A stretch of DNA of 33,086 nt, from contig JARXAE010000001.1 of assembly GCA_029866005.1 (NCBI GenBank), positions 1-33,086 on the forward strand. Direction: 5' to 3'. The position numbers and the translations under genes were made by a program. The notes under the pieces were generated by a model. It saw nothing but the letters and a program-made list of their open reading frames with translations, was not told where the DNA came from and ran no database searches. This stretch comes from Fimbriimonas sp. GTDB lineage: Bacteria; Armatimonadota; Fimbriimonadia; Fimbriimonadales; Fimbriimonadaceae. This document shows, piece after piece, positions 11,231 to 29,312 of the stretch. The stretch's first letter is position 1. Each line of letters opens with the position of its first letter.

Positions 11231-11317
11231 GAGCCACCGCGTGGGCTGGATAAGCACTCGGATGGCACTTTCAACCGACCAACCACCCGACCCAATCGCC
11301 TTCCGTCCGCCCAGCTT
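11231..11317. repeat. Dispersed ~87-bp repeat, copy 1
   Basis: It aligns almost end to end with 12667-12753. Shared blocks include CTTCCGTCCGCCCAGCT (17 of 17 bases) and ACCAACCACCC. It lies between the M48 gene and the 3' end of the small membrane protein gene. Confidence 0.7.
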
Positions 11318-12617: not shown

Positions 12618-12672
12618 ACAACGCGTCGCAGTTCTCTCCCCCCGTGGCCCGAAAGCCAATGACCGAAAGCCA
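12618..12672. repeat. ~55-bp direct repeat, copy 2
   Basis: It is the partner of 12493-12548. It runs directly into the second copy of the ~87-bp repeat, so the two families are joined here. Confidence 0.75.
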
Positions 12673-12753
12673 CTACGTGGGATGGGTAATGAATCGTGTG
12701 GCACTGTTAAGCAACCAACCACCCAAGCCAATCGGCTTCCGTCCGCCCAGCTA
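12667..12753. repeat. Dispersed ~87-bp repeat, copy 2
   Basis: It is the partner of 11231-11317. Both copies end in TTCCGTCCGCCCAGCT and translate to the same peptide N-R-L-P-S-A-Q-L in one frame, but neither has a gene-like context. Confidence 0.7.
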
Positions 12754-12763
12754 GATTTTCAAT

Positions 12764-12789
12764 CATGAAAAAGCCCCGGAGCTTCAAAA
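12764..12789. repeat. att-like direct repeat, copy in a terminator
   Basis: CATGAAAAAGCCCCGGAGCTT is nearly identical to 13844-13870, differing by one inserted base and one substitution over about 26 bp. This copy forms one arm of the terminator of the PEP-CTERM gene. Confidence 0.6.
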
Positions 12790-12823: not shown

Positions 12824-13531
12824 TCAGGCCTTCTTCACGCGGCGTCGAAGTAGTCCAGCAACGCCGAGTCCAAGAGCTGCCATCGAAGCCGGCTCTGGAA
12901 CAGGATTAAGGGCCGACACGTTTACCAGGTCAAATCCGAAGGTACCGGTCGAAGCATAGCTACCTGCAGGGTTAGACGGTGAATATGCCGTCGTCGTGGG
13001 AGCGAAAATCGAAACGACTCTGAATCCAAAGTTTGCATTGTCATCAGCTGCGTTGATCGCAGTGAAATCAAAAGCTCGCGAGTTCCAAGCATCACCACCC
13101 AGAATGTTCTCAAACTCTGCATTTGTAAGACCTGCGCTCGTGAAAGTGGTTCCGTCAAGGGTGTACTCAAACCGGCTCCAGCGGCTAGACGTGTTGCTGA
13201 ATCGGTGCTCGTACTTGACTTGAATGTCAGCTTGACCAACGGTCGAAACGTTAAATCGGACGCCATAAACTCCGCTGTCCGCTCCTTGAGCCGCATAGTT
13301 TCGAGTGTTCCAGCGATTGTTATCCAATCCTGGATCGAGGGAACTTCCAGTGTTGAACGTTGCGGAAAGTCCTGTCCCTAGAAGAGACGCCGTCCCCGTC
13401 CCCGTAGATGGAACCGGATTAGTTGTGCTCAGACCTGAAGCAACTCCGTTGAAGTTCCATTCGGTGATAAGAGTCTGTGCAAACGCTCCGCTTGCGATAA
13501 ATGCCAACGCCAAAGATGAAATCTTTTTCAT
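12824..13531 (-). CDS. PEP-CTERM sorted exported protein
   Basis: This 235-residue protein has a signal peptide (MKKISSLALAFIASGAFA, cut before Gln). The mature beta-rich body is full of Ser, Thr, Gly and Asn and resembles choice-of-anchor or lectin-like PEP-CTERM proteins (ITEWNFNG...). The end is a classic PEP-CTERM tail: V-P-E-P, a short hydrophobic helix (ASMAALGLGVAGLL), then RRRVKKA. Such proteins are processed by an exosortase and delivered to the surface or matrix; the exosortase is not in this window. The start at 13531 was preferred over a longer frame to 13576 because it begins the signal peptide cleanly. A strong terminator follows. Confidence 0.92.
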   Translation of the reverse strand: MKKISSLALAFIASGAFAQTLITEWNFNGVASGLSTTNPVPSTGTGTASLLGTGLSATFNTGSSLDPGLDNNRWNTRNYAAQGADSGVYGVRFNVSTVGQADIQVKYEHRFSNTSSRWSRFEYTLDGTTFTSAGLTNAEFENILGGDAWNSRAFDFTAINAADDNANFGFRVVSIFAPTTTAYSPSNPAGSYASTGTFGFDLVNVSALNPVPEPASMAALGLGVAGLLRRRVKKA

Positions 13532-13843
13532 AAAACAACCTCTGATTGCGCCACAGTATTCATGCCTGCATTGCAACGACCCCTAGATAGTGACTGGAGT
13601 ACTGAGTTCGTTTCAACATCATCTGAGGCCGAACGAAGACCCTTAATGAACTCTTAACTTTATTTGCTACTTCACCTGCTGGGTGAGACCAAGTTTTGCG
13701 CACTAAGCTAGCTTCAGCCAAGAACAGTCGAGATTCTTTGACCGATAGCGATCCGCTGGCCGATCTTGGAGGGGACTCGGGCGCCTCTGTCAAGTAACGG
13801 ACTACCACACCCAATCCTTAACCCCACTTAAGTGACCATCGGA
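13532..13843. other. Divergent spacer between PEP-CTERM gene and integrase
   Basis: No gene is seen in these 312 bp. It must hold the PEP-CTERM promoter. Near its end, CACTTAAGTG (13825-13834) is a perfect 10-bp palindrome, a possible operator or recombinase site immediately before the att-like repeat. Confidence 0.5.
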
Positions 13844-13870
13844 CATGAAAATAGCCCCGGAGCTTAAAAA
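13844..13870. repeat. att-like direct repeat, copy at the integrase
   Basis: CATGAAAATAGCCCCGGAGC and the next 7 bases repeat the terminator arm at 12764-12789 but lack the opposite arm. It ends 4 bp before the GTG that is the likelier integrase start, so it sits where an integrase attachment site would be expected. Confidence 0.55.
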
Positions 13871-15082: not shown

Positions 15083-17089
15083 TCAACTTCCTGGCGTCAC
15101 CGTCACTTCGAATGTAACTTCGACAGCATCTGATTCTGAACCCTTTGAAGTGCGAGATCCGATACTGCCAGTGAATTTTCGAATGAAAGTCTTCTTCTTC
15201 AGATCTACCGTGAAGGAGATGTCTCGATCATTACTCCCTGCGGCGGCATCACAATGGTCATCATCTCCTGCCAGATTCCCGTCCTCATCAAAGATTGATA
15301 TCTTGATGTCAACTTTGTCTGGCAGACTGGGATCATCCGATCCAATTACCATTTTAGAAAAACTCCAGTTTGAAGGTGAAACTGTCGATGCGTTGTTCAA
15401 TGCATCAAATGTCTTCTTTTCTGAACCTATGCGTAGGACTGCATAAAAGTCTGGCCCAGAACCAATGTCGGTCAAAGCGTCGAGCGACTTCACTGATTTA
15501 ACTTTGACGGTGACCTGATAGGTTTTTGGTACACGCATCGGCTTCTCTGTGGAAACGGCATCGTCTCCATCCTGCCTCTTAAACACACGATCGAAGACAC
15601 CAGCCGACTCGAGCAGCATCTTTTCCGGATTTGCCTTCCACTGGATGCTGCCATCAAACTTGCGATTGAAGCCGAGCATGAAATTGTTCGGCAAGGCTGA
15701 TCCCTTTTGACGAACACCGAGATCCGTCAGCAAATCCTGGGCACCTGCCTGAGACAAAAGAATCAACTTACTCATGATGAGGGTGTTATAGGCTGGGGCA
15801 AACTGGTCGATCACGAACTTACTTTTTGGACTTGCTAAACCCATCATCTGATTGATTTGAGAGAGCGAAATCGGTTGCCCAAGGAACCCACCTGTACTAC
15901 TTCTTGGTCGACGCGAAGCAGACATCACCTGATCGAAGTGGAACTCCGGCCTTTTCAGATAGTCCTTGAGCTCGGAGTACTTCATCCCCGTAAACCCAAC
16001 AAGATAATCCATCAGGTTTGCCTTCATCCGAATGATTTCTTCTTCGGAAACATAGCTGTACAGGATCGCATCTGTGAGTTCTCCGATCTGTGCCCTTGAA
16101 AGCCCCACGTAGTCTGGTGCCCCCAGCATGCTTATGAGGTGGTTGTTGAGATATGCCTCAATTTTGTCATTGAGGATCTTTTCTTTCAGAACCGGATCAA
16201 TACTGTCAGCATCAAAGAGCACCAAGTGTTGTGCGACGTCGTGACTCAACGTTACCAGCGCCTTTAGCCCTCGATCAATGTCTTTGATCCACTCCCGCTT
16301 GTAGGCTACGATTGGAGCAGCGGGCGCTCTCCGAAGATCATCCTTATGCCTTTCATAGTTTTCGATATCTTCTTGAAGCTCGTCCCTAAGCTTCGAGAAC
16401 AAAAAAGGCAGCGATCGAATTACCGTCTCGCCCTTGTAGAGCCGATCTGCCAGATAGGTTCCCTTGCGGCAGTCGATCAATGTCGAGTAGATCCAGTCTT
16501 CGATTCCATCGATACTAGTTGAAGTGGATTCTAAACCTGGAGCGTGTTTAGCAATGTAGCCCTCAAAGACCAGGTGCCGGAGGAAGTTTGTGGACAGGAC
16601 ATCAAAATCGCCGCCCGCGTAGTGATTCACTAATGTGTGACCAAACATGTCGCCGGCTCCGTGGGTCAGGTATCCGGCAGCGAATGCACGCACTTTTAAT
16701 CTCTTCTCACCTTGGGGAAGTTTCAGTGACTCATTCCAAAGATGTTCGAGCCAGATATTGGTTCCACCAAAGGTATTGCTTGGCGCATCCGGATGGATCA
16801 CCATTTGGCCCGTGAGAATGTCTGGATACGCGTCTGGTCCCATCGTTCCCGCACGGTAGTGCTCTGGATACTTCTTAAGGGCTTGGACTAGTTCGGGATC
16901 GACCTGATAACCCTTATTCAACCCTCTGAGCTTCAATGGTCCAGACTTAAGATCCGGAATCGTGAGAAATCCATCCAGAGCGTCTAGACGCGCAGATTCC
17001 GCGATAGCGGCATGCATAGACGGTTTCCAGGCTTGAGCGCTTGTAAGGAACATCGTAGCAAATATTGCGGCAACGAACTTTGTTTTCAT
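15083..17089 (-). CDS. Zinc phospholipase C-like exported protein with C2-like tail
   Basis: This 668-residue protein has a signal peptide (1-20, ending SAQA) so that the mature protein starts with Trp (W21-K-P-x-x-H26). In zinc phospholipase C and P1 nuclease folds, the N-terminal Trp itself binds zinc. Other expected ligands follow: D86 (GPDAYPD), H99, and the H143-x3-D147-x3-H151 motif (THGAGDMFGH) with H156. A helical middle of about 300 residues follows. The C-terminal 120 residues resemble a calcium-binding C2 domain (DFYAVLRIG ... ISIFDEDGNLAGDDDH). A lipid or phosphodiester substrate is inferred. AGAAGGAAA precedes the ATG. It is the last gene of the six-gene operon, 11 bp after the Fn3-like gene. 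Confidence 0.8.
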   Translation of the reverse strand: MKTKFVAAIFATMFLTSAQAWKPSMHAAIAESARLDALDGFLTIPDLKSGPLKLRGLNKGYQVDPELVQALKKYPEHYRAGTMGPDAYPDILTGQMVIHPDAPSNTFGGTNIWLEHLWNESLKLPQGEKRLKVRAFAAGYLTHGAGDMFGHTLVNHYAGGDFDVLSTNFLRHLVFEGYIAKHAPGLESTSTSIDGIEDWIYSTLIDCRKGTYLADRLYKGETVIRSLPFLFSKLRDELQEDIENYERHKDDLRRAPAAPIVAYKREWIKDIDRGLKALVTLSHDVAQHLVLFDADSIDPVLKEKILNDKIEAYLNNHLISMLGAPDYVGLSRAQIGELTDAILYSYVSEEEIIRMKANLMDYLVGFTGMKYSELKDYLKRPEFHFDQVMSASRRPRSSTGGFLGQPISLSQINQMMGLASPKSKFVIDQFAPAYNTLIMSKLILLSQAGAQDLLTDLGVRQKGSALPNNFMLGFNRKFDGSIQWKANPEKMLLESAGVFDRVFKRQDGDDAVSTEKPMRVPKTYQVTVKVKSVKSLDALTDIGSGPDFYAVLRIGSEKKTFDALNNASTVSPSNWSFSKMVIGSDDPSLPDKVDIKISIFDEDGNLAGDDDHCDAAAGSNDRDISFTVDLKKKTFIRKFTGSIGSRTSKGSESDAVEVTFEVTVTPGS

Positions 17090-17100
17090 TTGTTTCCTTC

Positions 17101-19800
17101 TTATGGGGTCTGTGTCGTAATGGATGCTGCAACAGATTGATTACCAAACGTGTCGACAGCAATGATTGAATACCTGTAGCTTTTACCAGCCAATGTGGTG
17201 TGATCTAGGAAAGTGCCTCCTTTCACATCAGAGCTGATAATCTCGGGCGTTTCTGTTCCACTCGTCCTACTGATGATGTAGAAAGCTGCATCAGGGACGG
17301 GTGCCCAAGAAAGTGCTACACCGCGAGAACTTGCGCTTGCGGAAAAGTTAATTGGCGCAGTCAATCGCATGCGAAGGGCTTTTGCCTTCATTGCCATTGA
17401 GTTCATCGATTTAAGCCCCGCGGTAGTGGCTGCAATCGCGGCGTACAAATACTCGCGTCCCGGTTGAAGATTCTTGTCAGAGTAGGTGAAGCTGCTGTTG
17501 TTATCACTAGGAACAACCTGCTCCGCAACTTGTTGTCCGTCTCGAAGCAGAATCACTTTAATGACACCTTGGTCAGCCGGGGGCTTGGAAACTTTGATTG
17601 TTAGCTCTTTGTCTCCGGTTGGCCTCACCGAAAGTAGATTCGGCGCATCGGGAGCAATTGTGGACGGAGCTTCGATCACAACCTCTTTTCCTGCTCCCTT
17701 GATGTTCCACCTCGAGATAGTGGACACACGATAGGTGTAGACCTTTGACCTGCTGCGTGGCAAGAAATCGGTGAATGAGTTTGCATTCGATGGGGTCATT
17801 CCAACTTCGACAAAAGGCTCATTGCCGGATTTTCTCTCTATCGAATAAACAGGATTTATCTGCCCCGGAACTGCTGCCCATGTGATGGTTGCCCGCCCTC
17901 CCGAGTCCTTAGTAGGTATGTTCAGCGTAACGGGAGCTTTACCCTTCAATGGATTAAAGTTAGTTAGATTATTCCGAAGTTGGGAAAAGGGTGCAGAAGG
18001 AGCACTGAATGGTCGAGGCGAGGCCGATGGCTTTGCACCAGCGGATGTTGCTATTGTTGCCTTAAAGCTGATAGCAACCGAGCCCGGAGCCGCAGGAGCC
18101 ACAGGATCAGGCAGGTTAACAACGCCGGCAGGTGCCTCTGCGGATTCAAGTCCAGTGGAGACGTAGAGTGCTTTGACGAAGAATCGATATCGCCGATTCA
18201 CTTCTGTACCAGTGCTGAGGAAGCTCCGAGGAGGATTCTGACTCCAGGAAGTTTTCAGCGCCTTTCTACCCATTTCAATCATAGCCTTAGTCTTCGCAGC
18301 ACTAATGATGGCGGCTTTTCTGGCATCGCCTGTAGATTGCTCGGCTGACCGCTCAGCCGCTAGAATCTGCCGCTCTTGTTCATCGAGATAAGACTCGCCC
18401 ATAACTAGGTCAAGCGCAGCAAGAAACTGTTCTTCGGTGCCTACAGAAATCGGAACGCCTTCTACCGGAGATGGATTCAAGAGCGATGGTGCAGCTTCAG
18501 GGTTGTCTAGATCTACGCGATAGATGTTGTATCTGAGCTGAAGACCCGCCGGGGCAACTTGTGATTGCCACCCGATAGAGACTGTCCTTCCAACGCCGCT
18601 CAGAACATCGGTCGGAGCATTAAACTTTTCAAATCCAGATGACCTTGGTTTAAACCTCTTTGGCTTTCCACTCAAAGTTGATCCCGCTGAGCGCGGGGGA
18701 GCCGGCTTCCTCCAATCTTTCGCAGGGACGGTCAGTGAAACTGGGCTACTGATTCTCCCAAAGCCATCCACGGCCCGGATTTCATAAGTGTATAGACCCG
18801 GCTTTGCGATCTGGTCTTGAAAGAACCAGATCGGCTCCCTCCCCTCCGGTCCATCAAGAATGATGAGAGGTTCTTCGGTCAGAGGCTCAAACGCCTGAGA
18901 GCCAAGTTCGGGTCCTTTGCGCTGTATAAGGTAGGAGACAGCCAGAAGAGTGTTTTCAAGCTCAACAGGAAACCGATTCCACCGCAATCGAATCTTGTCC
19001 TCCTCATGAATGAACTCAGGACCGCCTATTGCCGGTGCGCCGGACCCAGGACCGACATTAAAGTCGGGTAGCTTCACGAGAAGTTTTCCATCTCCTCCAG
19101 CTGAAGTGGCTTCGTATAACTCGTAAGAAACCGTTTCGTTCGGCTGCATAGTACGGTCAGTGGCACCTAAGCAAAGACTCTGAGCAAGGTCTGGCTTGAG
19201 GAAGGACATCAAGGTTAAACTGGCCCGAGGTTCAAAAGTCAAATCTTTGGTCGAAAGCGCCTTGACTTGCGGTCGTTTGGCAACTGGTCCATTTAATCGG
19301 CCAAGCTCACTTATCTTCTGCGCTTTGACGTCCCGTTGATTCTTTGTAAGCAATGTCGAATCCAAAGATTCGATCTCTTTCACGAGCTGCTGGCGCCTTG
19401 CGAATAGTGGTGCTGCCGAAACTCTACTTGGCTGCAAAAAGGACAGCTCTTTGGAGATAGGATTTACAAGTTTTGCCGAGGCGATAAACCCCCGGGAACG
19501 AACCTTTTGCGGCAAAGCTGAGTCGTCGATGCTCTTCGAGGCAACTACCAGTGACTTCGCAGAGCCTTGAATTCTGTATAGCCTGATCCCATTGGCTGGC
19601 ACCCAACCTTTGATGAATTGCCATCTAAGACGGACCTCGAATTGATTGAATGCTTTGGAGCTAACCGCATTAAGGCGCACATTACCGTTCGTCGTCGAAA
19701 CGACTTGTGAGCTGCATACTGCAATCAGCCCTCCCGCCAGTAGGGTCATTGCAGACTTGAGCATCGCACCGGCACAATTCTTAGTAGCTCTCATCATCAT
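17101..19800 (-). CDS. Exported fibronectin type III-like multidomain protein
   Basis: This 899-residue protein has a signal segment at about 13-32 (LKSAMTLLAGGLIAVCSSQ). The body is several beta-sandwich units with Fn3-like edge motifs: YTYEIRAVDGFGRISSPVSLTV (about 335-356), YRFFVKALYVSTGLESA, YTYRVSTISRWN, YLYAAIAATTAGLKS and, at the end, YRYSIIAVDTFGNQS. About five units can be counted. A helical Lys/Glu/Ala insert at about 470-520 interrupts the second one. No catalytic motif is seen; a surface scaffold or binding role is likely. It lies 4 bp after the 1001-residue protein. The three leading Met codons leave the exact start open by two residues. Confidence 0.8.
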   Translation of the reverse strand: MMMRATKNCAGAMLKSAMTLLAGGLIAVCSSQVVSTTNGNVRLNAVSSKAFNQFEVRLRWQFIKGWVPANGIRLYRIQGSAKSLVVASKSIDDSALPQKVRSRGFIASAKLVNPISKELSFLQPSRVSAAPLFARRQQLVKEIESLDSTLLTKNQRDVKAQKISELGRLNGPVAKRPQVKALSTKDLTFEPRASLTLMSFLKPDLAQSLCLGATDRTMQPNETVSYELYEATSAGGDGKLLVKLPDFNVGPGSGAPAIGGPEFIHEEDKIRLRWNRFPVELENTLLAVSYLIQRKGPELGSQAFEPLTEEPLIILDGPEGREPIWFFQDQIAKPGLYTYEIRAVDGFGRISSPVSLTVPAKDWRKPAPPRSAGSTLSGKPKRFKPRSSGFEKFNAPTDVLSGVGRTVSIGWQSQVAPAGLQLRYNIYRVDLDNPEAAPSLLNPSPVEGVPISVGTEEQFLAALDLVMGESYLDEQERQILAAERSAEQSTGDARKAAIISAAKTKAMIEMGRKALKTSWSQNPPRSFLSTGTEVNRRYRFFVKALYVSTGLESAEAPAGVVNLPDPVAPAAPGSVAISFKATIATSAGAKPSASPRPFSAPSAPFSQLRNNLTNFNPLKGKAPVTLNIPTKDSGGRATITWAAVPGQINPVYSIERKSGNEPFVEVGMTPSNANSFTDFLPRSRSKVYTYRVSTISRWNIKGAGKEVVIEAPSTIAPDAPNLLSVRPTGDKELTIKVSKPPADQGVIKVILLRDGQQVAEQVVPSDNNSSFTYSDKNLQPGREYLYAAIAATTAGLKSMNSMAMKAKALRMRLTAPINFSASASSRGVALSWAPVPDAAFYIISRTSGTETPEIISSDVKGGTFLDHTTLAGKSYRYSIIAVDTFGNQSVAASITTQTP

Positions 19801-19804
19801 CCTA

Positions 19805-22800
19805 TCACTTCTTGGCTGGTACTACCAGATCCACTTCGAAGGAGCCTTCAAATGGACCTGCTCTTCCAGAAACTTCTCCGGTGATGCGAATGTCTTTGTT
19901 TATCTGCATGAGAAGTGACGCATCAACTTGTGCGGTAAAGAATCCAAAATCCGCTTGGGCGCTTAGGGCCGTCTGTCCTGAGATGGACCAATTTTCCTCT
20001 CCGAAGTTCTTGAAGTCAAGGGTTGCGAGTAGGCCACCGGTAACGCCTACGCCTGCAACAGCAAAGCGAGCATCAGCATCGAGGAACACTCCGCCAGATT
20101 TATTAGCAAAATCTAGCCCCATACCAAAGCTACCCTTTAGCTCGATAACTCCTTTGAAAGCTTCGGCAAAGCGAACATTGACCGGCTTCTGTCCTCCTTC
20201 AGGCCATCCTATGTACAGGTGTTTGTCAGTCTTGCCTATCAGAAGTTCGGCCGATCCACTCATCGATATCAGCGAAGCTGCACGGGTCGGAAAGTTGAGG
20301 TCGGCATCGCCGCCAACGATGAACTCCGGTTTACTGAGATTGAGCGCCATGAACACCGTGGCAATCCGATCTTTGCGCAACCACTCATCGCGGTCGATAA
20401 AGTCAGCCCCGGCTAAGTCCAAGAAGGTCATTCGTGCAGTCAGGTCAATCAAGACTGGGTTCAGAGTAAACGTCAGGGCGGTATCTGCCCACCAGACTCT
20501 GCCTGAGCTCGCGGGATCGCTGAGAAGTAGACCTATTTGAACCAAAGCTCCCTTTGAATACTTCAGCTCCTTGTTTGGCTCTGATATCCGCCCGGTGCCT
20601 GGCTTTACGAGCGCCACATTGAGCCCAAATCCCCCGGAAAACCCGTTGATATTGAATAAGGGCACGGGAGGGGTTCCGGGCGCTTGCACAGAAATGGGGG
20701 GAACAAGAACATTGCCTCCGATAAACCAAGCGGCAGGTTCATTTCCACCCTTGGGCGCTAGCAAGAATTCTAGTCCGATCCCAGATCCCATTGATCCTAG
20801 ACAAGTAAGTTTGAGCTCGGCATCGCCGTAGAGGGTGTCACCAAACGACTCTATTTCCGTTCGAAAAAGCGACGCAGAGATTGTGCCCAATTCCGGAATC
20901 TCAGCTTTGAATCCGAATCCGCCCATACTAAATGGGGGGTCTCCTCTGCGCTTTGAGACTCTCATTCCTTCGAAGTCCAACTCTCCCGCCGCAGGCAATC
21001 CCTCAAGGGCCTTAGTTAGAAAAGCTGAGCCACTAAAAGTGACCGATTCAATCTCGTTATTCTGGGCCGTGAAGGAGAGACCTCTCAATTCGACAATACA
21101 TGGTCCGACATTGACTCTAGCAGGAGTTCCGAGGGTAATCCCACCTTCGCTCGGCAAAGTTATTGATCCGTCGCCAGCAACCTTGAGTCCCTGGATGCTA
21201 AGCTTCGTTCCAGCCAGCTCCTGAGGCATCTGGTTCCTTGTCACGAATTCTTGCTTAAATGTTAAGTCACCGCCTATCTGCAAGCTCTTCTGATCAAGTT
21301 GCGCATTTACTCTCTCCAGTTTCAAACCCAGGTCCTGGAACTCGAGCTGACCGTCACGAATCGCAACCCTCGCCTCCCCATCCTCATTGAACTCAGCATT
21401 ACAAGGAAGCACGCCTAGTCGTGGAACGGTGATGTCTGCTCCGAATTGACCAGCCGTGAGCTGATTTTGGGCGAAAGTCAAACAGACCGAGGCCTTGTTA
21501 AGATCGAAGCCTTCAAATTTGAAGCTTAGGTTTGAGGCACTTGCTGTTCCGGACAAACCGTTAGGTTCAATCAAAAAATTGGTATAAGCAAGCTTTGGAG
21601 TCGCGGTACCAAGGGCAGGCGTAACAGTGCCTGATGGCAGCCATACCCCTTTCCATTTGGGTTCAGCCGCGATGACAGGTGCCCCGGCACCAAAAAGTGA
21701 AGTTGAAAGATCGATAAATAGTCGGCTAGCAGTTAGCTTGGTCTTCCCAACTTTGAAAGCGATTGGATCTGGAAACTCAATAGTGAGACCGTTCTCAACC
21801 TTTACAATCACCCTTGGAGAAGACGGAATCCTCACTGGACGCCGGGGTTCGCCGTTCGGCGGTTGCGCCGGCGGGTTGTTCGAACCGGGGTTGGGGTTTG
21901 AGTCAGTGTCATCAGCCTGGATCGCAGGTGGCAATGTAACATCGACCCGCAAGTTGGTGATTTTTGGTTTCGAATCCTTTACCGTGAGAGTTCCTCCAGC
22001 CACGGTCGCTTTGAACCCGGCAATGTCTGGAAAATCAATCGTTGAACGGTTTGATATCGAAAACTCAGGGCAGTTAACTTTCCCATCTTGGTCGATTGAT
22101 AGCTCGGTGAATGCCGCAGCAAGGGGATACTTGGGAACCGTAGCAACTCCCGGGATTCCGGCTTCAAGCGTCCCAGTTGGTAACAGTAGTTTCCAAGCAT
22201 TCACGCCTTGAGCAGCCCACGAAACTTCAATATCGGCCTTCGGAGCCAATACTCGGAGACTTGGCAGTTGAATGCCTTCTCCAGCTACAGGTCCTTTAAA
22301 TCCAACTCCGTTCAACTTCAGGGAGCCCGATTGCTGATTTCCAGAGTATGTGAACTTCGATACCTCAGCCTCGATTGGATCGCCATTCGTTAAGCGGAAG
22401 GGAGTCGTTATGATCGCCTTTCCAACCAATGAAATACTCTTATCCGCAAATACATCAGCATCGCCGGTAGGCAAAGTGATTTTCACACCCAAACCAGGCG
22501 TGAACTCAAATGGGCGATCAAGTGTAAAACGCACGCCGCTTAAAGCGCCATTATTCGAAGTGATGAGATTCGTAAATGTGACGCCCGGCTTCGTAAAGGT
22601 GGCCGAACCAAAAATCAAAGCTAAATCGGCAGTGCCAGCTGCCGGTTTGGAGATATCTGCTGGAGTACCCGGTGTGTATACGACGTTTCTGAGCTCAACC
22701 GATCCTGGAACAAGCTGAATGGTCGATGGGCGCTGAGCCTGCAATACAGCGCTCGCTAAGCTCAATATTCCCAGCAGTAGGCCCGTCCTAATCAGTCGAA

Positions 22801-22810
22801 CCCTTTTCAT
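19805..22810 (-). CDS. Large exported beta-repeat protein, unknown (reminiscent of DUF6603-type proteins)
   Basis: This 1001-residue protein has a signal peptide ending LQA before Gln. There is no transmembrane segment. The whole chain is Gly/Thr/Ser/Leu-rich predicted beta strand. Two internal units are recognisably homologous: about 205-295 (WKLLLPTGTLEAGIPGVATV) and about 388-470 (WKGVWLPSGTVTPALGTATP), each continuing with a strand such as LTVKDSKPKITNLRVDV or LTAGQFGADITV. A Pro/Asn-rich linker at about 299-325 separates them. Near 720-740, FNINGFSGGFGLNVAL recalls the glycine motif of DUF6603-type giants; this is by memory of pattern, not a search. It has a 4-bp start/stop overlap with the CsgG-like gene. 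Confidence 0.7.
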   Translation of the reverse strand: MKRVRLIRTGLLLGILSLASAVLQAQRPSTIQLVPGSVELRNVVYTPGTPADISKPAAGTADLALIFGSATFTKPGVTFTNLITSNNGALSGVRFTLDRPFEFTPGLGVKITLPTGDADVFADKSISLVGKAIITTPFRLTNGDPIEAEVSKFTYSGNQQSGSLKLNGVGFKGPVAGEGIQLPSLRVLAPKADIEVSWAAQGVNAWKLLLPTGTLEAGIPGVATVPKYPLAAAFTELSIDQDGKVNCPEFSISNRSTIDFPDIAGFKATVAGGTLTVKDSKPKITNLRVDVTLPPAIQADDTDSNPNPGSNNPPAQPPNGEPRRPVRIPSSPRVIVKVENGLTIEFPDPIAFKVGKTKLTASRLFIDLSTSLFGAGAPVIAAEPKWKGVWLPSGTVTPALGTATPKLAYTNFLIEPNGLSGTASASNLSFKFEGFDLNKASVCLTFAQNQLTAGQFGADITVPRLGVLPCNAEFNEDGEARVAIRDGQLEFQDLGLKLERVNAQLDQKSLQIGGDLTFKQEFVTRNQMPQELAGTKLSIQGLKVAGDGSITLPSEGGITLGTPARVNVGPCIVELRGLSFTAQNNEIESVTFSGSAFLTKALEGLPAAGELDFEGMRVSKRRGDPPFSMGGFGFKAEIPELGTISASLFRTEIESFGDTLYGDAELKLTCLGSMGSGIGLEFLLAPKGGNEPAAWFIGGNVLVPPISVQAPGTPPVPLFNINGFSGGFGLNVALVKPGTGRISEPNKELKYSKGALVQIGLLLSDPASSGRVWWADTALTFTLNPVLIDLTARMTFLDLAGADFIDRDEWLRKDRIATVFMALNLSKPEFIVGGDADLNFPTRAASLISMSGSAELLIGKTDKHLYIGWPEGGQKPVNVRFAEAFKGVIELKGSFGMGLDFANKSGGVFLDADARFAVAGVGVTGGLLATLDFKNFGEENWSISGQTALSAQADFGFFTAQVDASLLMQINKDIRITGEVSGRAGPFEGSFEVDLVVPAKK

Positions 22811-23793
22811 TTGATAGAACCTTGCTCCACACCTTTGCCAAGAGTGACGACATCCGACTTTTCAAAACCCGCCCCGTCGACCGGAACACAAATCGTGACT
22901 TGATCCGAAACTTCAAGGACCTTGAGCTTTCCAACCTTTTTACCCTTGGTACGACCTATCACAACATTCGTTTCGGGATCAGTGATGATCTTTCCAGCGC
23001 GTCGAACATCTAGAATCATGCCAGCTGACAATCCAGCTTTTGCACCTACGTTCAGATATATTTGCAGACCATTGTCAGAGTCTTCTAACTCAACAACTTT
23101 AGCCTCCCACTCAACTTTTTCTGCGCGGGCTACGATGCCTTCGACAGCTAACTTTATCGCATCTCTTACTGCCGCACCGAGCGCACCTTCTTCGAAACTG
23201 GCAGTACCGAAGCTGAGTTCCTCTTTAGTAAAAGAAAACGATTTTCTGCGACTCGTAGCTTTTCCTTGCGCGTTAAACGAGTCCAATATCCGGCCTGTCG
23301 AAACCTCTACTATTCGGAGATCGACACCCACGGTCGCTTCGACTTTGGCTTCTGAAAAAGAACCCTGCTCTCCGACCTTTCCACCAACACCAGCCCCAGC
23401 TCGCTTCAGTTTTAGTTCTGTTATAGCTCCTTTCACTGTAATCTGTGGGATCAAGCTGCCGGTCCCCTGGGAGCTTCCCGCGAGTCGATCAAGGACTACA
23501 AAGTGGTCAGACTTGACCAACTCAGTCAGCAACATCTCAGTGATTCCAGTCCCAAATTCAGTCGGCTGATTTAGATCTAGGGTCACAACACTAACCGTGC
23601 CCGAAGGAGTCGGGGCAGTCGTTGTGACCGCTTGGACCTTGACCTCAAGCGGTGAAACCTCCGCGACTTTTCTTGGCGCGCTTCGCTTGGAAGTTTTCGG
23701 CTTGGCATCTTGCTGAACCTGACCCGCCTCCATATTCACAGGCAAACCGAAAGGTAGTAACACCAGGGCAAAAACTTGAGACATCAAAAGCAT
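22807..23793 (-). CDS. CsgG-family protein with FlgT C-terminal-like domain
   Basis: This 328-residue exported protein has a CsgG-like core at about 65-215: a first strand (SVVTLDL), the motif FGTGITEMLLTELVKSDHFVVLDR at 80-103, VKGAITELKL, and then VGVDLRIVEVSTGRIL. CsgG forms a nonameric secretion pore in the outer membrane. The C-terminal part (about 240-320, IYLNVGAKAGLSAGMILDV ... KVGKLKVLEV) looks like the FlgT C-terminal domain found with CsgG in other bacteria. No Cys is found near the N-terminus, so unlike E. coli CsgG it is not an obvious lipoprotein. It starts 2 bp after the barrel gene and overlaps the next gene by 4 bp. Confidence 0.82.
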   Translation of the reverse strand: MLLMSQVFALVLLPFGLPVNMEAGQVQQDAKPKTSKRSAPRKVAEVSPLEVKVQAVTTTAPTPSGTVSVVTLDLNQPTEFGTGITEMLLTELVKSDHFVVLDRLAGSSQGTGSLIPQITVKGAITELKLKRAGAGVGGKVGEQGSFSEAKVEATVGVDLRIVEVSTGRILDSFNAQGKATSRRKSFSFTKEELSFGTASFEEGALGAAVRDAIKLAVEGIVARAEKVEWEAKVVELEDSDNGLQIYLNVGAKAGLSAGMILDVRRAGKIITDPETNVVIGRTKGKKVGKLKVLEVSDQVTICVPVDGAGFEKSDVVTLGKGVEQGSIK

Positions 23794-23795
23794 GG

Positions 23796-26039
23796 TTAGA
23801 ACCTGTAATCAAGACCGAGAAAGCCAGTTGCTCTCGCCGGGTAGCCCGTGTAAAACTTAGCTCTACCAAGGTTGAATGCGCCGAGCATCATGTTAACACC
23901 TGGTCGAATTTTTTGCAAGGCGAAAACGTTGATTCCAAGAGCGGCTTCGGCTTCACCAACGTATGTGACCAAATTCCCCGAGATGTCTCGGACACTAACA
24001 GCCCTGGGCCTAGGTCCAAGATAAGCTAGACCTATTGTGTAGGTAGTCGAGCCCAGGACACTCTCAAGCTTAATATTTGCCTGAAGACGAGGAAAGTTTG
24101 CCAAGGAGTTCTGCTCGGTAGGCACTTGCACCGGATACGAACTCAGAGAGAACACGGGTGTAGTTGGGCTACCCGATGTAAATTGGTATGTGATATCCGT
24201 TTTCAGCTTGGAGTTCGAACGAAGACTCTGCTCCATATGCCATTCCACTCCGGTGGCCTCACCACTGCCGACTGGGGTCAGTAAGAGGTTGGTAGCTGCT
24301 CGCGGATCAGCTGCCTGCAGGAGGGCATTTTCCATCCTTCGGTGGAATAGAACCCAGTTCTCTTGAATCCGAGGTCCCTCACGGCCGGGCAGCTTGAGTT
24401 CATAGTTTAGAAACCGCGTGTCCCTACCAGAGAGAACAGGATTAGTGTTGAAATCCTGCGGCTGTAGCTCATGCCGGTCAATTGAGTTCTGCAACGGTGA
24501 ATCGCTTAACAGGTGCGCCGGAAAAAGATCGGACACGGAATCATTTACTCGTGAAGTCACTCCAAATCTGACTGGTCTACTTTTCCCTAGACGAAACTCG
24601 GCCACCGGCTGGAGAACAGTCGAACTGCTTAATTTTGCTGCTACAAATCCGAACGTCGTGGTCATTACCGGAGACACATGTTTCTCCCAAAGTGCATATC
24701 CCAACCAAGATCGTGTTGTTCCATCTGGCATTACCACCTCGGCCGGATCGAACGGGCGAGAACTGGTCGAGCCCCGTCGAAACTGAGACCAAGCAAAGCC
24801 GCTGGTCAGTTTTGAATTGTTTTTGTAGTTGGCAACTGCGCGCGCCTCAATGTTGAATACATCATCTTGGACTTGGTCTGCCCAATTTGTTACTGAGTTC
24901 CTAGTCTGCAGCGTGGAGGAACGGTACTTTGCGAAACCGGTGACCTCAGTCGATTTCCCCTTCGATTCTGCAGTTACAAGCAAGTTCGTTGACGCTAGGC
25001 GGAACCGAGAATCCGGAACAGGCACGACTCCAGCGATGGGTTCCTCCGCGCCAGGTCTACCACCACCTGAACTGTTATGCTGGACAATGACCGAGCCACC
25101 TTTTACTGAGAGAATGCCTTCGAAGCGATCTCGCCACTGGTACGCTTCTGGGCGCCCTTCGACATTAAGTCGATCAGTCCTAACTGCAAACTTGGAGAAC
25201 CGACCACCACTCGAAAACTGTTGCGACGCAAAATCTAGATTGAAGGCATTAGGCCCACCTCCCAAGACGTACCCACGTTGCGAAACTGGACTAATTAGGG
25301 AGTTTGCGGCCACGCTTCGGCCTTGCACTACGGCCTGCGAGAAGGTCTTCTCGGATTCACGCAATCGACCTTGATCTAGGTCAATTCGGGATTTGAGTAG
25401 CAAGAGAAACGGGTGATTGGGGTCTTTGAGCAGTCCAGCTTTGATTATCTCTTCTGCTCTCGGAAGCGAGAGGGCTTTGATGGCAGCCTCTGCGTCGGCG
25501 ACAGTGAATAGTGACGAAGTGTCGCCAAGCGAGCGGGCCATTTCTATGTTTCGTCCGGCCACATCCGTCCGCCCGATATCGATGTTGGCTAGGGCTGCAT
25601 TGACCCAAATGGCGGAATCGTTCGGTCTGAGCTCTGCTGCTAAATCTAACCAGCGAATGGCTTCCTCAGAATTTCCTTCAAGGATGTACGCAGCTGCAAG
25701 ATTGTTTCTTATCGCCCCCAGGTCTCCCGCAAAAATGAGGGCCACTTTGAGCTTCCTCGCTCGAGGATCAAAAGAAAGTTCTGCAAGGGCATCGTCAGAC
25801 CCAGACACAGCCGAACTTGGTCGGTTAGTAAGCTGCAGCAATCCTTTGCGAGCAGCTGCCGGATCCAGCTGCAACATTGATTCGAGGGCATTCGTGACAT
25901 CGTTTTCTTGGGCTGCTTGCGCACTGACCTTTGCGCCACCGAAGCCTTCAGACCCTTGAGCAATAGAACATGCTGTCAGTAGAGGAATGCAACGTATAGC
26001 GACAGCATTTAGCGCCTTGATGCGCCAAATACCTGTCAT
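23796..26039 (-). CDS. TPR-domain outer-membrane beta-barrel protein
   Basis: This ~747-residue protein has an N-terminal signal ending L-L-T-A-C (a possible lipobox). An alpha-helical TPR-like region covers about 60-210 (LGAIRNNLAAAYILEGNSEEAIRWLDLAAELRPND is one unit, quoted here by its key positions N-x-x-A-A-Y and A-x-x-x-x-x-P-N). Then about 450 residues of alternating strands follow, resembling the C-terminal strands of TonB-dependent receptors (GVEWHMEQSL, TYTIGLAYLG). The chain ends in Phe (GLDYRF), the usual barrel-assembly signal. There is no plug domain. ATG 26039 was chosen; a TTG at 26066 overlaps the upstream stop and is possible. Confidence 0.78.
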   Translation of the reverse strand: MTGIWRIKALNAVAIRCIPLLTACSIAQGSEGFGGAKVSAQAAQENDVTNALESMLQLDPAAARKGLLQLTNRPSSAVSGSDDALAELSFDPRARKLKVALIFAGDLGAIRNNLAAAYILEGNSEEAIRWLDLAAELRPNDSAIWVNAALANIDIGRTDVAGRNIEMARSLGDTSSLFTVADAEAAIKALSLPRAEEIIKAGLLKDPNHPFLLLLKSRIDLDQGRLRESEKTFSQAVVQGRSVAANSLISPVSQRGYVLGGGPNAFNLDFASQQFSSGGRFSKFAVRTDRLNVEGRPEAYQWRDRFEGILSVKGGSVIVQHNSSGGGRPGAEEPIAGVVPVPDSRFRLASTNLLVTAESKGKSTEVTGFAKYRSSTLQTRNSVTNWADQVQDDVFNIEARAVANYKNNSKLTSGFAWSQFRRGSTSSRPFDPAEVVMPDGTTRSWLGYALWEKHVSPVMTTTFGFVAAKLSSSTVLQPVAEFRLGKSRPVRFGVTSRVNDSVSDLFPAHLLSDSPLQNSIDRHELQPQDFNTNPVLSGRDTRFLNYELKLPGREGPRIQENWVLFHRRMENALLQAADPRAATNLLLTPVGSGEATGVEWHMEQSLRSNSKLKTDITYQFTSGSPTTPVFSLSSYPVQVPTEQNSLANFPRLQANIKLESVLGSTTYTIGLAYLGPRPRAVSVRDISGNLVTYVGEAEAALGINVFALQKIRPGVNMMLGAFNLGRAKFYTGYPARATGFLGLDYRF

Positions 26040-26062
26040 CGACAATGTTACGAGCCTGTGCC

Positions 26063-27853
26063 TCAAGGTCGATCCTCATCCGCTGTGGATATCCGCTTAA
26101 ACTTCGTAAGTTTGGAGACTCTCACTAACTTTGCTAGAGTCGCCTGATCAAGTCGCCTTCCTAAGGCCGGATCAAATGTAAGCTTTTTGTTTGGCCACAG
26201 ACTAACCAGACCGCCCCCAGGCAACGGTCCCGCCTCCATTAAGATGTTTTCCCGAATCCACTCTCCGACGGAGGCCGTTCGATGAATATTGTCGTGATTT
26301 CTGAACACCCACGGAGTAGGTTCACCATCCTGGAGAGAGGGCAGCCGATAAAAGTTTCCATCGACCTGCTCAGAACCTGCGCTCCAAGATCGACCGTGCT
26401 CAAAGATTCCTTCCGTTGAAGAGCCGAATCGGACCGCAAGACCTGACCGAACACCGACCATTCCGTCACCGTCGGCAAAACCATCCTGATTCGACACCGC
26501 TGGCTCATCCTTTATCTTAGGACGATTCTCCCGGCTGAAAAACGTTGGTATGCCGAGACCAGGCAGGGCAGGCAACTCTCCTGGTTTCGATATTTCCCTC
26601 AGAGCCTTTTGGTGATATCTGGCAACCAGGTCTTGACCGGCTGCGGTCGGCACTCCAAAACTTTTGGGTCCAGAAGGGGTCGGTATGGTGTAGAGAAAAT
26701 AGTCAAGGGCTGCAAGCCCAACTGCGCGCACAACGTTTCGCCGATACGACTCGGAGTCGAGGCTAGGTAAAGAGATACCTCCCAATGCGGATTGCCGAAC
26801 CGGGTCAGTGTAAAAACCTCCTGCCGGGCTGTGAGCGGCCATGGCAAACATGGGCACACGGGAACCATCCGATCGCTCCATTCGATAGGGTGCGAGGATT
26901 CCACGGTTCAGTGGCCCCCAGAAGTCTGATCGAAGATGGCCGATCGAGGGGGCCCCAACAAGACCGCCGATAAATCCTCTCGCAGAATCAACAACATTTC
27001 CTGGAATTAGTTTTAGAGCTATCCAGTTTTTATCGTTATCGATAGCCGCCTTGATATCACTCGCTCTATCTGCGAGAGGCGAACCCTCATGAGGGGTGGC
27101 AAGCGTGACGACGTAATTAGTTCTGTCGCGAATCGCCTCCGCCCGTTGACGCTCGGTCGCGGTCAGTGACTCGTTGTCAATCCTATCCGAAGGGCTACAG
27201 AGAAGCGTCCGAACTGCGAGTCCTCCCATGCTGTGGCACACAAATACAATATTCGGCAAAACCTTGCCGCTCTTTGGATTCAGGCGTGTTCCAAACTTTG
27301 CAGTGTAGATCTCATAGACCTGATTGATCAATGCCTTCGTTTGGGGAATTAGCTTCTTGGATGCATCTCGGTAGCTGGGAAAGATGCTCAGCTTGGGTGT
27401 ACCGTCTCCAACGAAGTTTGAGGGGACTATAAAGTGGTCATCAACCACACTCTCGTCGCAGCCGTTGAGCATTTGGATAGTCCCGTTCGATGCGGGCTGT
27501 CCATGGGCTTCCCACTTACTACCAGACACGTCCTTCTGGGAAAGCGTCTTGAGGGAGGCCGAGCCCAAAAGTTTTTGAACGAAACCTGAACTGAAGTAAA
27601 ACCTATTGTAATCCAGGGATGGAACTGCTGGCTCCGGCACTCCCGGCATAGGGCTATCTCCTTCAGCAGCGCTCATGCCATGAACCAAAATAACAAGAGT
27701 TGGATGACCCTCTTGTGTTTCGATTACCGAACCCAAGGATACGCTCGGCGATGATTGACCAAAGCAGCTGCCCAGAATGGCGACAGTGCAAGTACAAGCA
27801 ACAAAGCGGTTCAACGCAATCATGGTTGCCAAATATACCAGGTAGTTCGTCAT
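26063..27853 (-). CDS. Exported alpha/beta hydrolase, lipase-like (PGAP1-type)
   Basis: This ~596-residue protein is the first gene of the six-gene operon. The lipase pattern is present: the oxyanion strand LVILVHGMS, the nucleophile elbow VCHSMGG with Ser near residue 208, a likely Asp in DGDGMVGVRSG near 463, and a His in NHDNIHRT near 520-524. The elbow reads C-H-S-M-G, so the first Gly of GxSxG is replaced by Cys. This arrangement fits PGAP1-like or triacylglycerol-lipase hydrolases; the substrate is unknown. A hydrophobic N-terminus ends LGSCFGQ. A second ATG at 27823 gives a tidier signal peptide, and an upstream TTG at 27895 is possible; none has a clear Shine-Dalgarno. Confidence 0.82.
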   Translation of the reverse strand: MTNYLVYLATMIALNRFVACTCTVAILGSCFGQSSPSVSLGSVIETQEGHPTLVILVHGMSAAEGDSPMPGVPEPAVPSLDYNRFYFSSGFVQKLLGSASLKTLSQKDVSGSKWEAHGQPASNGTIQMLNGCDESVVDDHFIVPSNFVGDGTPKLSIFPSYRDASKKLIPQTKALINQVYEIYTAKFGTRLNPKSGKVLPNIVFVCHSMGGLAVRTLLCSPSDRIDNESLTATERQRAEAIRDRTNYVVTLATPHEGSPLADRASDIKAAIDNDKNWIALKLIPGNVVDSARGFIGGLVGAPSIGHLRSDFWGPLNRGILAPYRMERSDGSRVPMFAMAAHSPAGGFYTDPVRQSALGGISLPSLDSESYRRNVVRAVGLAALDYFLYTIPTPSGPKSFGVPTAAGQDLVARYHQKALREISKPGELPALPGLGIPTFFSRENRPKIKDEPAVSNQDGFADGDGMVGVRSGLAVRFGSSTEGIFEHGRSWSAGSEQVDGNFYRLPSLQDGEPTPWVFRNHDNIHRTASVGEWIRENILMEAGPLPGGGLVSLWPNKKLTFDPALGRRLDQATLAKLVRVSKLTKFKRISTADEDRP

Positions 27854-28529
27854 GATTTTAAGTCTTTTTGCACCACAAGAATTTCCCCTGGCCAACCTTA
27901 ACTTTGGGAATCACAAGTTCATGAAACCGTGAGGAGTACCGTGCACCCATTCGGCATTTACTAGCCCAGCGAGACGTTGTTTCGGGTCCTAAACGGCGTT
28001 TACCCACGCCGTGAAGAAAACGGAAAGATCTGTCCTCGGTGATTCGTAAGCAGACAGATATTGCTGACCGTTTCGAAGCGGCTTGGAGAAGACAGTAGCT
28101 TCATCTCTAAACTGACATGTTTGAGATAGGCACTCCACCGCGCCGGCAGAACCACGATTACCCTGCGCTCGACACCCTGAGGATCGTGAGTGGGGAGAGT
28201 GCTTTTTGAGGGGTCTGCAACCTAAAACAAAAATTTAAGGTAGTCACTGGCCCAGTTTGCCATGCCCAATTTCGGATGTCGTGTGATCTTTGGCCTTTGC
28301 TGGGTTTTCAGCGGTCCCTCGTCAAACTGGAGCCATTCACTAGTTGAGGTTGGAATTAGTGATCGCAAACTGTCCACGGCCCCATGAGGTCTTATCGCAG
28401 GCTGTCACTCTCCAACGGATCGGAGAGTGACAGCCTTGGTGTGTTCAACTTGCATCGTACTGTGCCTCAAATGGTTCAGTAGTGTCCTTGGTCACCCAGA
28501 GTGGCGTTCCAAAAGCTCGAGATAATCGG
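27854..28529. other. 676-bp gene-free stretch upstream of the six-gene operon
   Basis: No gene longer than about 60 codons is credible here. It contains a 7-bp inverted repeat with a 6-base loop (27993-27999 / 28006-28012) and a perfect 15-bp inverted repeat (28399-28436). It must include the operon promoter, which I could not place with confidence. Confidence 0.6.
28399..28436. repeat. Perfect 15-bp inverted repeat
   Basis: AGGCTGTCACTCTCC pairs with GGAGAGTGACAGCCT around the 8-base loop AACGGATC. There is no T-run on either strand, so it is not a standard intrinsic terminator. It lies 94 bp downstream of the unknown gene at 28530-29063 and about 550 bp upstream of the operon start. Confidence 0.9.

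Positions 28530-29236: not shown

Positions 29237-29312
<76 letters not shown>

Follow-up and report, generated by a model that had tools for sequence, protein, structure and literature searches.

Among described outer-membrane systems, the exporter of the Pel polysaccharide offers the closest parallel to the locus presented here. In its PelBC complex, twelve copies of PelC form a ring on the periplasmic side of the TPR-barrel protein PelB (PMC12141448). The subject of the present analysis is a six-gene operon within a 33,086-nucleotide stretch of DNA (the window) from an uncultured Armatimonadota bacterium (G000), related most closely, among named taxa, to Fimbriimonadaceae and other Armatimonadota. 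In operon order, the genes encode an alpha/beta hydrolase, a TPR-barrel protein, a CsgG-like protein, a beta protein of 1001 amino acids (aa), an Fn3 protein and a zinc-dependent phospholipase C-type enzyme (PLC). Both systems thus have in common a TPR-barrel outer-membrane protein encoded beside a PelC-fold protein, and PelB/PelC would most plausibly constitute the best analogue of the barrel/CsgG-like pair. On the contrary, the present barrel, known from its sequence family, is of the TonB-receptor type by Pfam and not of the 16-strand PelB type, the ring protein features an extra FlgT_C-like domain but no lipobox, and hydrolases together with the beta and Fn3 proteins stand in place of synthase genes. 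Pfam scans of the operon and of ten window genes flanking it detected no Pel synthesis genes. Since these genes and the lipobox are both lacking, the locus is not a Pel system.

A PelBC-like mode of working nonetheless appears most plausible because the TPR-barrel has a neighbour of the PelC/FlgT fold. The operon is therefore best read, tentatively, as a two-module outer-membrane export or display device, in which the beta-Fn3 pair and the hydrolases would represent cargo or a surface complex. The barrel would act as outer-membrane channel or anchor, while the CsgG-like protein, in view of its fold and its strict pairing with the barrel, may form a periplasmic ring round the barrel's TPR neck, like PelC on PelB, by which substrates would be guided into the barrel. 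Because a lipase-beta fusion occurs in a related genome (G006) and the genes share one operon, the beta-Fn3 pair may in turn provide a scaffold that holds the lipase, and possibly also the PLC, on the outer membrane or outside it. There, the displayed hydrolases would cut foreign or extracellular lipids, their target lying probably outside the cell. The initial annotation of this DNA had already proposed an export or display machine for lipid-active enzymes; the barrel, the co-occurrence of the genes and the intact enzymes speak for this proposal, whereas the enzymes as cargo, as well as the suggested roles in predation, nutrient scavenging or envelope remodelling, stay conjectural.

In its most specific form, namely an undescribed protein export or display system of Armatimonadota in which a TPR-fused, plugless TonB-type barrel and a FlgT/PelC-type ring export or anchor a hydrolase-loaded beta/Fn3 scaffold, the proposal is doubtful. 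If true, a PelBC-like architecture would serve proteins instead of polysaccharide. The operon itself links a TonB-type barrel with ring-fold proteins familiar from Pel export, the flagellar H-ring and curli secretion. The outer-membrane biology of Armatimonadota is little studied, and the operon opens protein display by a PelBC-like device to a concrete test. Searches of the libraries and the literature returned no described system with this gene set, in agreement with the annotation, which had known of no named system of this composition.

The six-gene unit and its modular conservation

The six open reading frames (ORFs) occupy the minus strand from position 27895 to 15083 of the window (Table 1). 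They are real genes and constitute one tight unit, as had been annotated, with junctions of -4 bp (lipase/TPR-barrel), +2 bp (TPR-barrel/CsgG-like), -4 bp (CsgG-like/beta), +4 bp (beta/Fn3) and +11 bp (Fn3/PLC). The lipase gene probably starts at the previously given ATG at 27853, a longer TTG start being possible as well, and the TPR-barrel gene has alternative starts at a TTG or at ATG 26039. A simple scan revealed an N-terminal hydrophobic core in all six products, consistent with the export signal formerly assigned to each of them. That of the CsgG-like protein is atypical, as no basic residue precedes the core and the cleavage site is not clear. Lipobox-like motifs of uncertain use are present in the lipase and the TPR-barrel protein. 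Promoter and terminator scans yielded hits no more numerous than in shuffled sequences.

Searches of 291 genomes of the phylum with family profiles showed that the unit is conserved as modules, the first comprising the TPR-barrel and the CsgG-superfamily protein and the second the beta and Fn3 proteins. In another genome of the genus (G006), TPR-barrel, CsgG-like, beta, Fn3 and PLC genes are kept in order and strand at 33-52% identity; upstream of them lies an ABC transporter gene, as judged from its sequence, and not a lipase gene. Because five of six genes are collinear in this genome, the gene set is not a product of chance. Partial arrangements comprise lipase, TPR-barrel, CsgG-like and PLC genes in G016, a cluster without the beta-Fn3 pair, and CsgG-like, beta and Fn3 genes in G105, a member of a distant family of the phylum, without a TPR-barrel nearby. 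In G126, lipase, TPR-barrel and CsgG-like genes lie at the end of one contig and a truncated beta gene followed by Fn3 at the start of another, which fits a single broken cluster. The co-occurrence in related genomes that the annotation had put forward as a check is thus borne out. Moreover, the TPR-barrel gene adjoins the CsgG-like gene in all eight genomes with a close TPR-barrel relative, including G068 and G156, where beta-Fn3 resides at a separate location. Likewise, beta adjoins Fn3 at each of 13 loci in 11 genomes. The beta family is present in 11 of the 291 genomes, to which a profile constructed from the Fn3 neighbours of beta added no further genome at 1e-20.

The TPR-barrel protein

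The TPR repeats (TPR_19, Pfam 9e-6) lead into a C-terminal barrel, and the C-terminus is aromatic (YRF). By sequence family, two of eight members match the TonB-receptor barrel PF00593 at 9e-9, and wider relatives do so at 1e-16; together with the TPR hits, these matches support the annotated outer-membrane barrel with a TPR head. While a C-terminal PF00593 barrel is shared with TonB-dependent receptors and SusC, the TPR head here replaces the plug, and no plug domain was among the Pfam matches of the eight members. A scan of genome contigs with the barrel protein returned no match.

A barrel of the TonB-receptor type, encoded with two hydrolases and with Fn3 and beta proteins of a binding type, might equally belong to a lipid-utilisation locus resembling a polysaccharide-utilisation locus, in which secreted hydrolases and binding proteins digest lipids outside the cell and the barrel imports the products; the SusC/D-type layout is a known arrangement of this sort. 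However, usual TonB-gated import is unlikely because none of the eight members has a plug, and a TPR head with a ring-fold partner is typical of exporters such as PelB/PelC. Lipid utilisation is hence considered improbable.

A TPR-barrel plus a PelC-fold ring is the layout of Pel export itself (PMC12141448), and the operon could accordingly specify an exopolysaccharide or holdfast exporter of the Pel/BcsC/PgaA kind, with the hydrolases as modification enzymes. Yet no glycosyltransferase, synthase or deacetylase was found in the six genes or the ten flanking genes scanned, the enzymes are of lipid type and not glycan type, and the ring protein is devoid of a lipobox, which leaves polysaccharide export very unlikely.

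Other classes of the phylum harbour long TPR-TonB-barrel proteins (L100:6822-12409, L103:6315-10049 and L105:1472-4990), which bear an N-terminal FecR domain in L100 and L103 and have as neighbour a protein of ~330 aa ending in APVY or APMY. In G258 (L100), a CHASE2 sensor kinase adjoins the long barrel gene. The FecR-bearing versions and the CHASE2 neighbour thus indicate a barrel family wider than the operon.

The CsgG-superfamily protein

Homology of the CsgG-like protein to CsgG is evident from Pfam (Table 1) and from profile comparison with CsgG chains (E 4e-11). FlgT_C is weak by sequence (0.08), the C-terminal domain being confirmed by fold comparison. The AlphaFold2 model (mean predicted local distance difference test score, pLDDT, 68) matched the LPHT ring chain 8z5n (Z 19.5) and FlgT 3w1e (Z 15.7) over both domains, whereas CsgG (Z 13.5), PelC chains (Z 10.8-11.3) and a PelBC chain (Z 10.7) were matched over the core, the PelC and PelBC alignments spanning 117-124 residues. 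The match to FlgT begins at FlgT residue 93, and the architecture corresponds to FlgT-M plus FlgT-C. In contrast to the flagellar H-ring protein, with which the CsgG-like middle and the C-terminal domain are shared, the FlgT-N domain is not matched, and no flagellar families occur among the window genes scanned.

The CsgG-like protein might also be a pore in its own right, secreting the beta or Fn3 protein in a manner similar to Type VIII secretion. Besides the clear profile homology, its first hairpin region aligns with that of CsgG at full length, and the genes for beta and Fn3 come immediately after it, an arrangement shared by G105, which has no TPR-barrel in the vicinity. Unlike CsgG, the protein carries an extra C-terminal domain and a separate barrel is encoded next door; Pfam and NCBIfam matched none of the curli partners CsgA, CsgB, CsgE and CsgF among the six operon proteins. 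In addition, of the two hairpin regions, which in CsgG span the membrane, the lengths are similar but the tips (134-147 and 184-198) have pLDDT below 50, and the second region holds a charged RRK stretch. The curli-pore reading is disfavoured because the N-terminal lipidation Cys is absent from all seven aligned sequences, i.e. the protein and its relatives, and because FlgT is matched better than CsgG over the whole length; it is, like polysaccharide export, very unlikely. Of the annotated "CsgG-like pore", the CsgG homology and the FlgT_C-like domain therefore stand, the latter by fold, and the pore is not supported. If there is a channel, the TPR-barrel is the likelier candidate for it.

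The beta and Fn3 proteins

The beta and Fn3 proteins represent constantly paired families of unknown function. The 1001-aa protein has no Pfam match and its AlphaFold2 model, built with one relative, was unusable (mean pLDDT 35.5). It is exported and predicted to be beta-rich, in line with the annotation, but the internal repeats noted there are not claimed: despite low E-values, hhalign probabilities were under 10%. In a profile search of the PDB, its family gave a weak match (0.005) to the minor capsid protein of a phage. An assignment to DUF6603 was rejected, the best score being 0.026 in one member and no genome exceeding the curated cut-off. For the Fn3 protein, the fn3 match lies below the Pfam cut-off in the operon (0.0013) and reaches 5e-12 in a relative.

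An envelope-maintenance set, in which hydrolases located in the periplasm and a beta protein of AsmA-like kind trim or move outer-membrane phospholipids, would be in keeping with two phospholipase-type enzymes and with matches to T2SSN, which we take to be an AsmA-like family, in two beta members. At 0.023, these matches are too weak to be used and the link was discarded, while the beta protein lacks an internal membrane anchor and the sporadic occurrence of the set (11 of 291 genomes) is unlike that of a housekeeping function, so that envelope maintenance is highly improbable. Anti-phage defence was dismissed, as no PADLOC match was obtained at E 0.01.

The lipid hydrolases

Both lipid-hydrolase folds named in the annotation were recovered, and both enzymes look active, judging from the retained catalytic residues. 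The lipase scores 22.9 bits against the DUF676 cut-off of 20.3; its triad, comprising the nucleophile S222 in HSMGG (family motif HSxGG), an acid within DGDG (471-477; D471, D475 or D477) and H534, is invariant in four aligned family members. The PLC reaches 33 bits against a cut-off of 26.8 for Zn_dep_PLPC. In the PF00882 family, an N-terminal Trp and His, Asp and Glu residues bind zinc ions; residues of these kinds, namely W21, which directly follows a classical signal cleavage site (AQA|W21), H26, D86/D90, H99, H143, D147, H151, H172 and E176 are invariant in three members. Catalytic residues are thus common to these enzymes and to described Zn-dependent PLC and PGAP1/DUF676 esterases, and what distinguishes the former is their site within this operon, along with a C2-like tail of the PLC, which is not conserved in the PLC of G016.

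Further loci connect lipases with the remaining components. At a second locus of G006, a single ORF of 1836 aa combines lipase and beta protein and is followed by Fn3 (L014:7886-13396). In G068, a lipase relative of 799 aa is encoded 153 bp upstream of a second CsgG-like gene (361 aa) on the same strand, with no TPR-barrel gene at this locus (L118:7796-11434), and in G156 a TIG/GDSL-lipase protein is encoded directly upstream of the TPR-barrel/CsgG-like pair.

Evidence weighing against an export or display device

Several observations count against the proposed export or display device. TPR-barrel and beta are associated across the 291 genomes, being co-present in 5 of them (p 1.5e-6), as are TPR-barrel and lipase (5 genomes, p 2e-8); these associations speak for the device, but the p values ignore shared ancestry and derive from profiles built partly from the counted loci. 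In two of the five genomes with TPR-barrel and lipase (G006 and G068), the lipase gene lies away from the barrel gene, and the PLC elsewhere mostly stands alone. The lipid hydrolases could be ordinary Sec-exported neighbours. The beta-Fn3 pair occurs without a close TPR-barrel in six genomes; a Pfam scan of these barrel-less loci revealed no constant third partner. In G003 and G010, the TPR-barrel/CsgG-like pair is followed by exported proteins of ~200 aa in place of the hydrolases, and therefore the cargo is not fixed. Finally, transport of the beta protein, the Fn3 protein and the hydrolases by the device is what we infer, and the ring oligomer and its contact with the barrel are putative.

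The ~200-aa exported proteins, encoded immediately after the TPR-barrel/CsgG-like pair, belong to one family, with five members in tandem in G003 (L016:4689-7890, minus strand) and one in G010 (L017:12305-12940). Behind them come genes for a small protein and for a multi-pass membrane protein. The family is a possible alternative cargo.

Genomic setting

The operon region fits an integrated island at tRNA-Asn: the blastn alignment with G001, the closest relative, breaks off at 29237, exactly the 3' end of this tRNA gene, and this synteny break agrees with the presence of an integrase. No copy of the tRNA-Asn 3' end that might mark a second att site was found elsewhere in the window. Between the ends of the tyrosine recombinase gene and the last operon gene lie 41 bp; the recombinase gene is possibly a mobility gene outside the machine.

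Table 1. Features of the operon and its surroundings (window coordinates)
Feature	Position	Strand	Basis
Exported alpha/beta-hydrolase (DUF676/PGAP1-like lipase), 596-610 aa	26063..27895	-	Pfam DUF676 6.8e-5, triad invariant
TPR head fused to a plugless C-terminal beta-barrel of TonB-receptor type, 756 aa	23796..26066	-	TPR Pfam hits, PF00593 in relatives
CsgG-superfamily protein with FlgT_C-type C-terminal domain, 328 aa	22807..23793	-	Pfam CsgG 2e-18, AlphaFold2 fold
Exported, predicted beta-rich protein, 1001 aa	19805..22810	-	Family without Pfam model
Exported Fn3-repeat protein, 899 aa	17101..19800	-	Constant neighbour of beta gene
Zn-dependent phospholipase C-type enzyme, C2-like C-terminal region	15083..17089	-	PF00882 7.3e-8
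Tyrosine recombinase (phage integrase)	13845..15041	+	Pfam Phage_integrase 7.8e-28
tRNA-Asn gene	29237..29312	-	ARAGORN

Beyond the integrase, an 85-nt direct repeat (81% identical) spans 11232-11316 and 12668-12752 of the window, and close by, at 12768, lies a 31-nt terminator-like repeat, a second copy of which (84%) falls within the beginning of the integrase gene, at 13849. A PEP-CTERM protein encoded at 12824-13576 adjoins the integrase.

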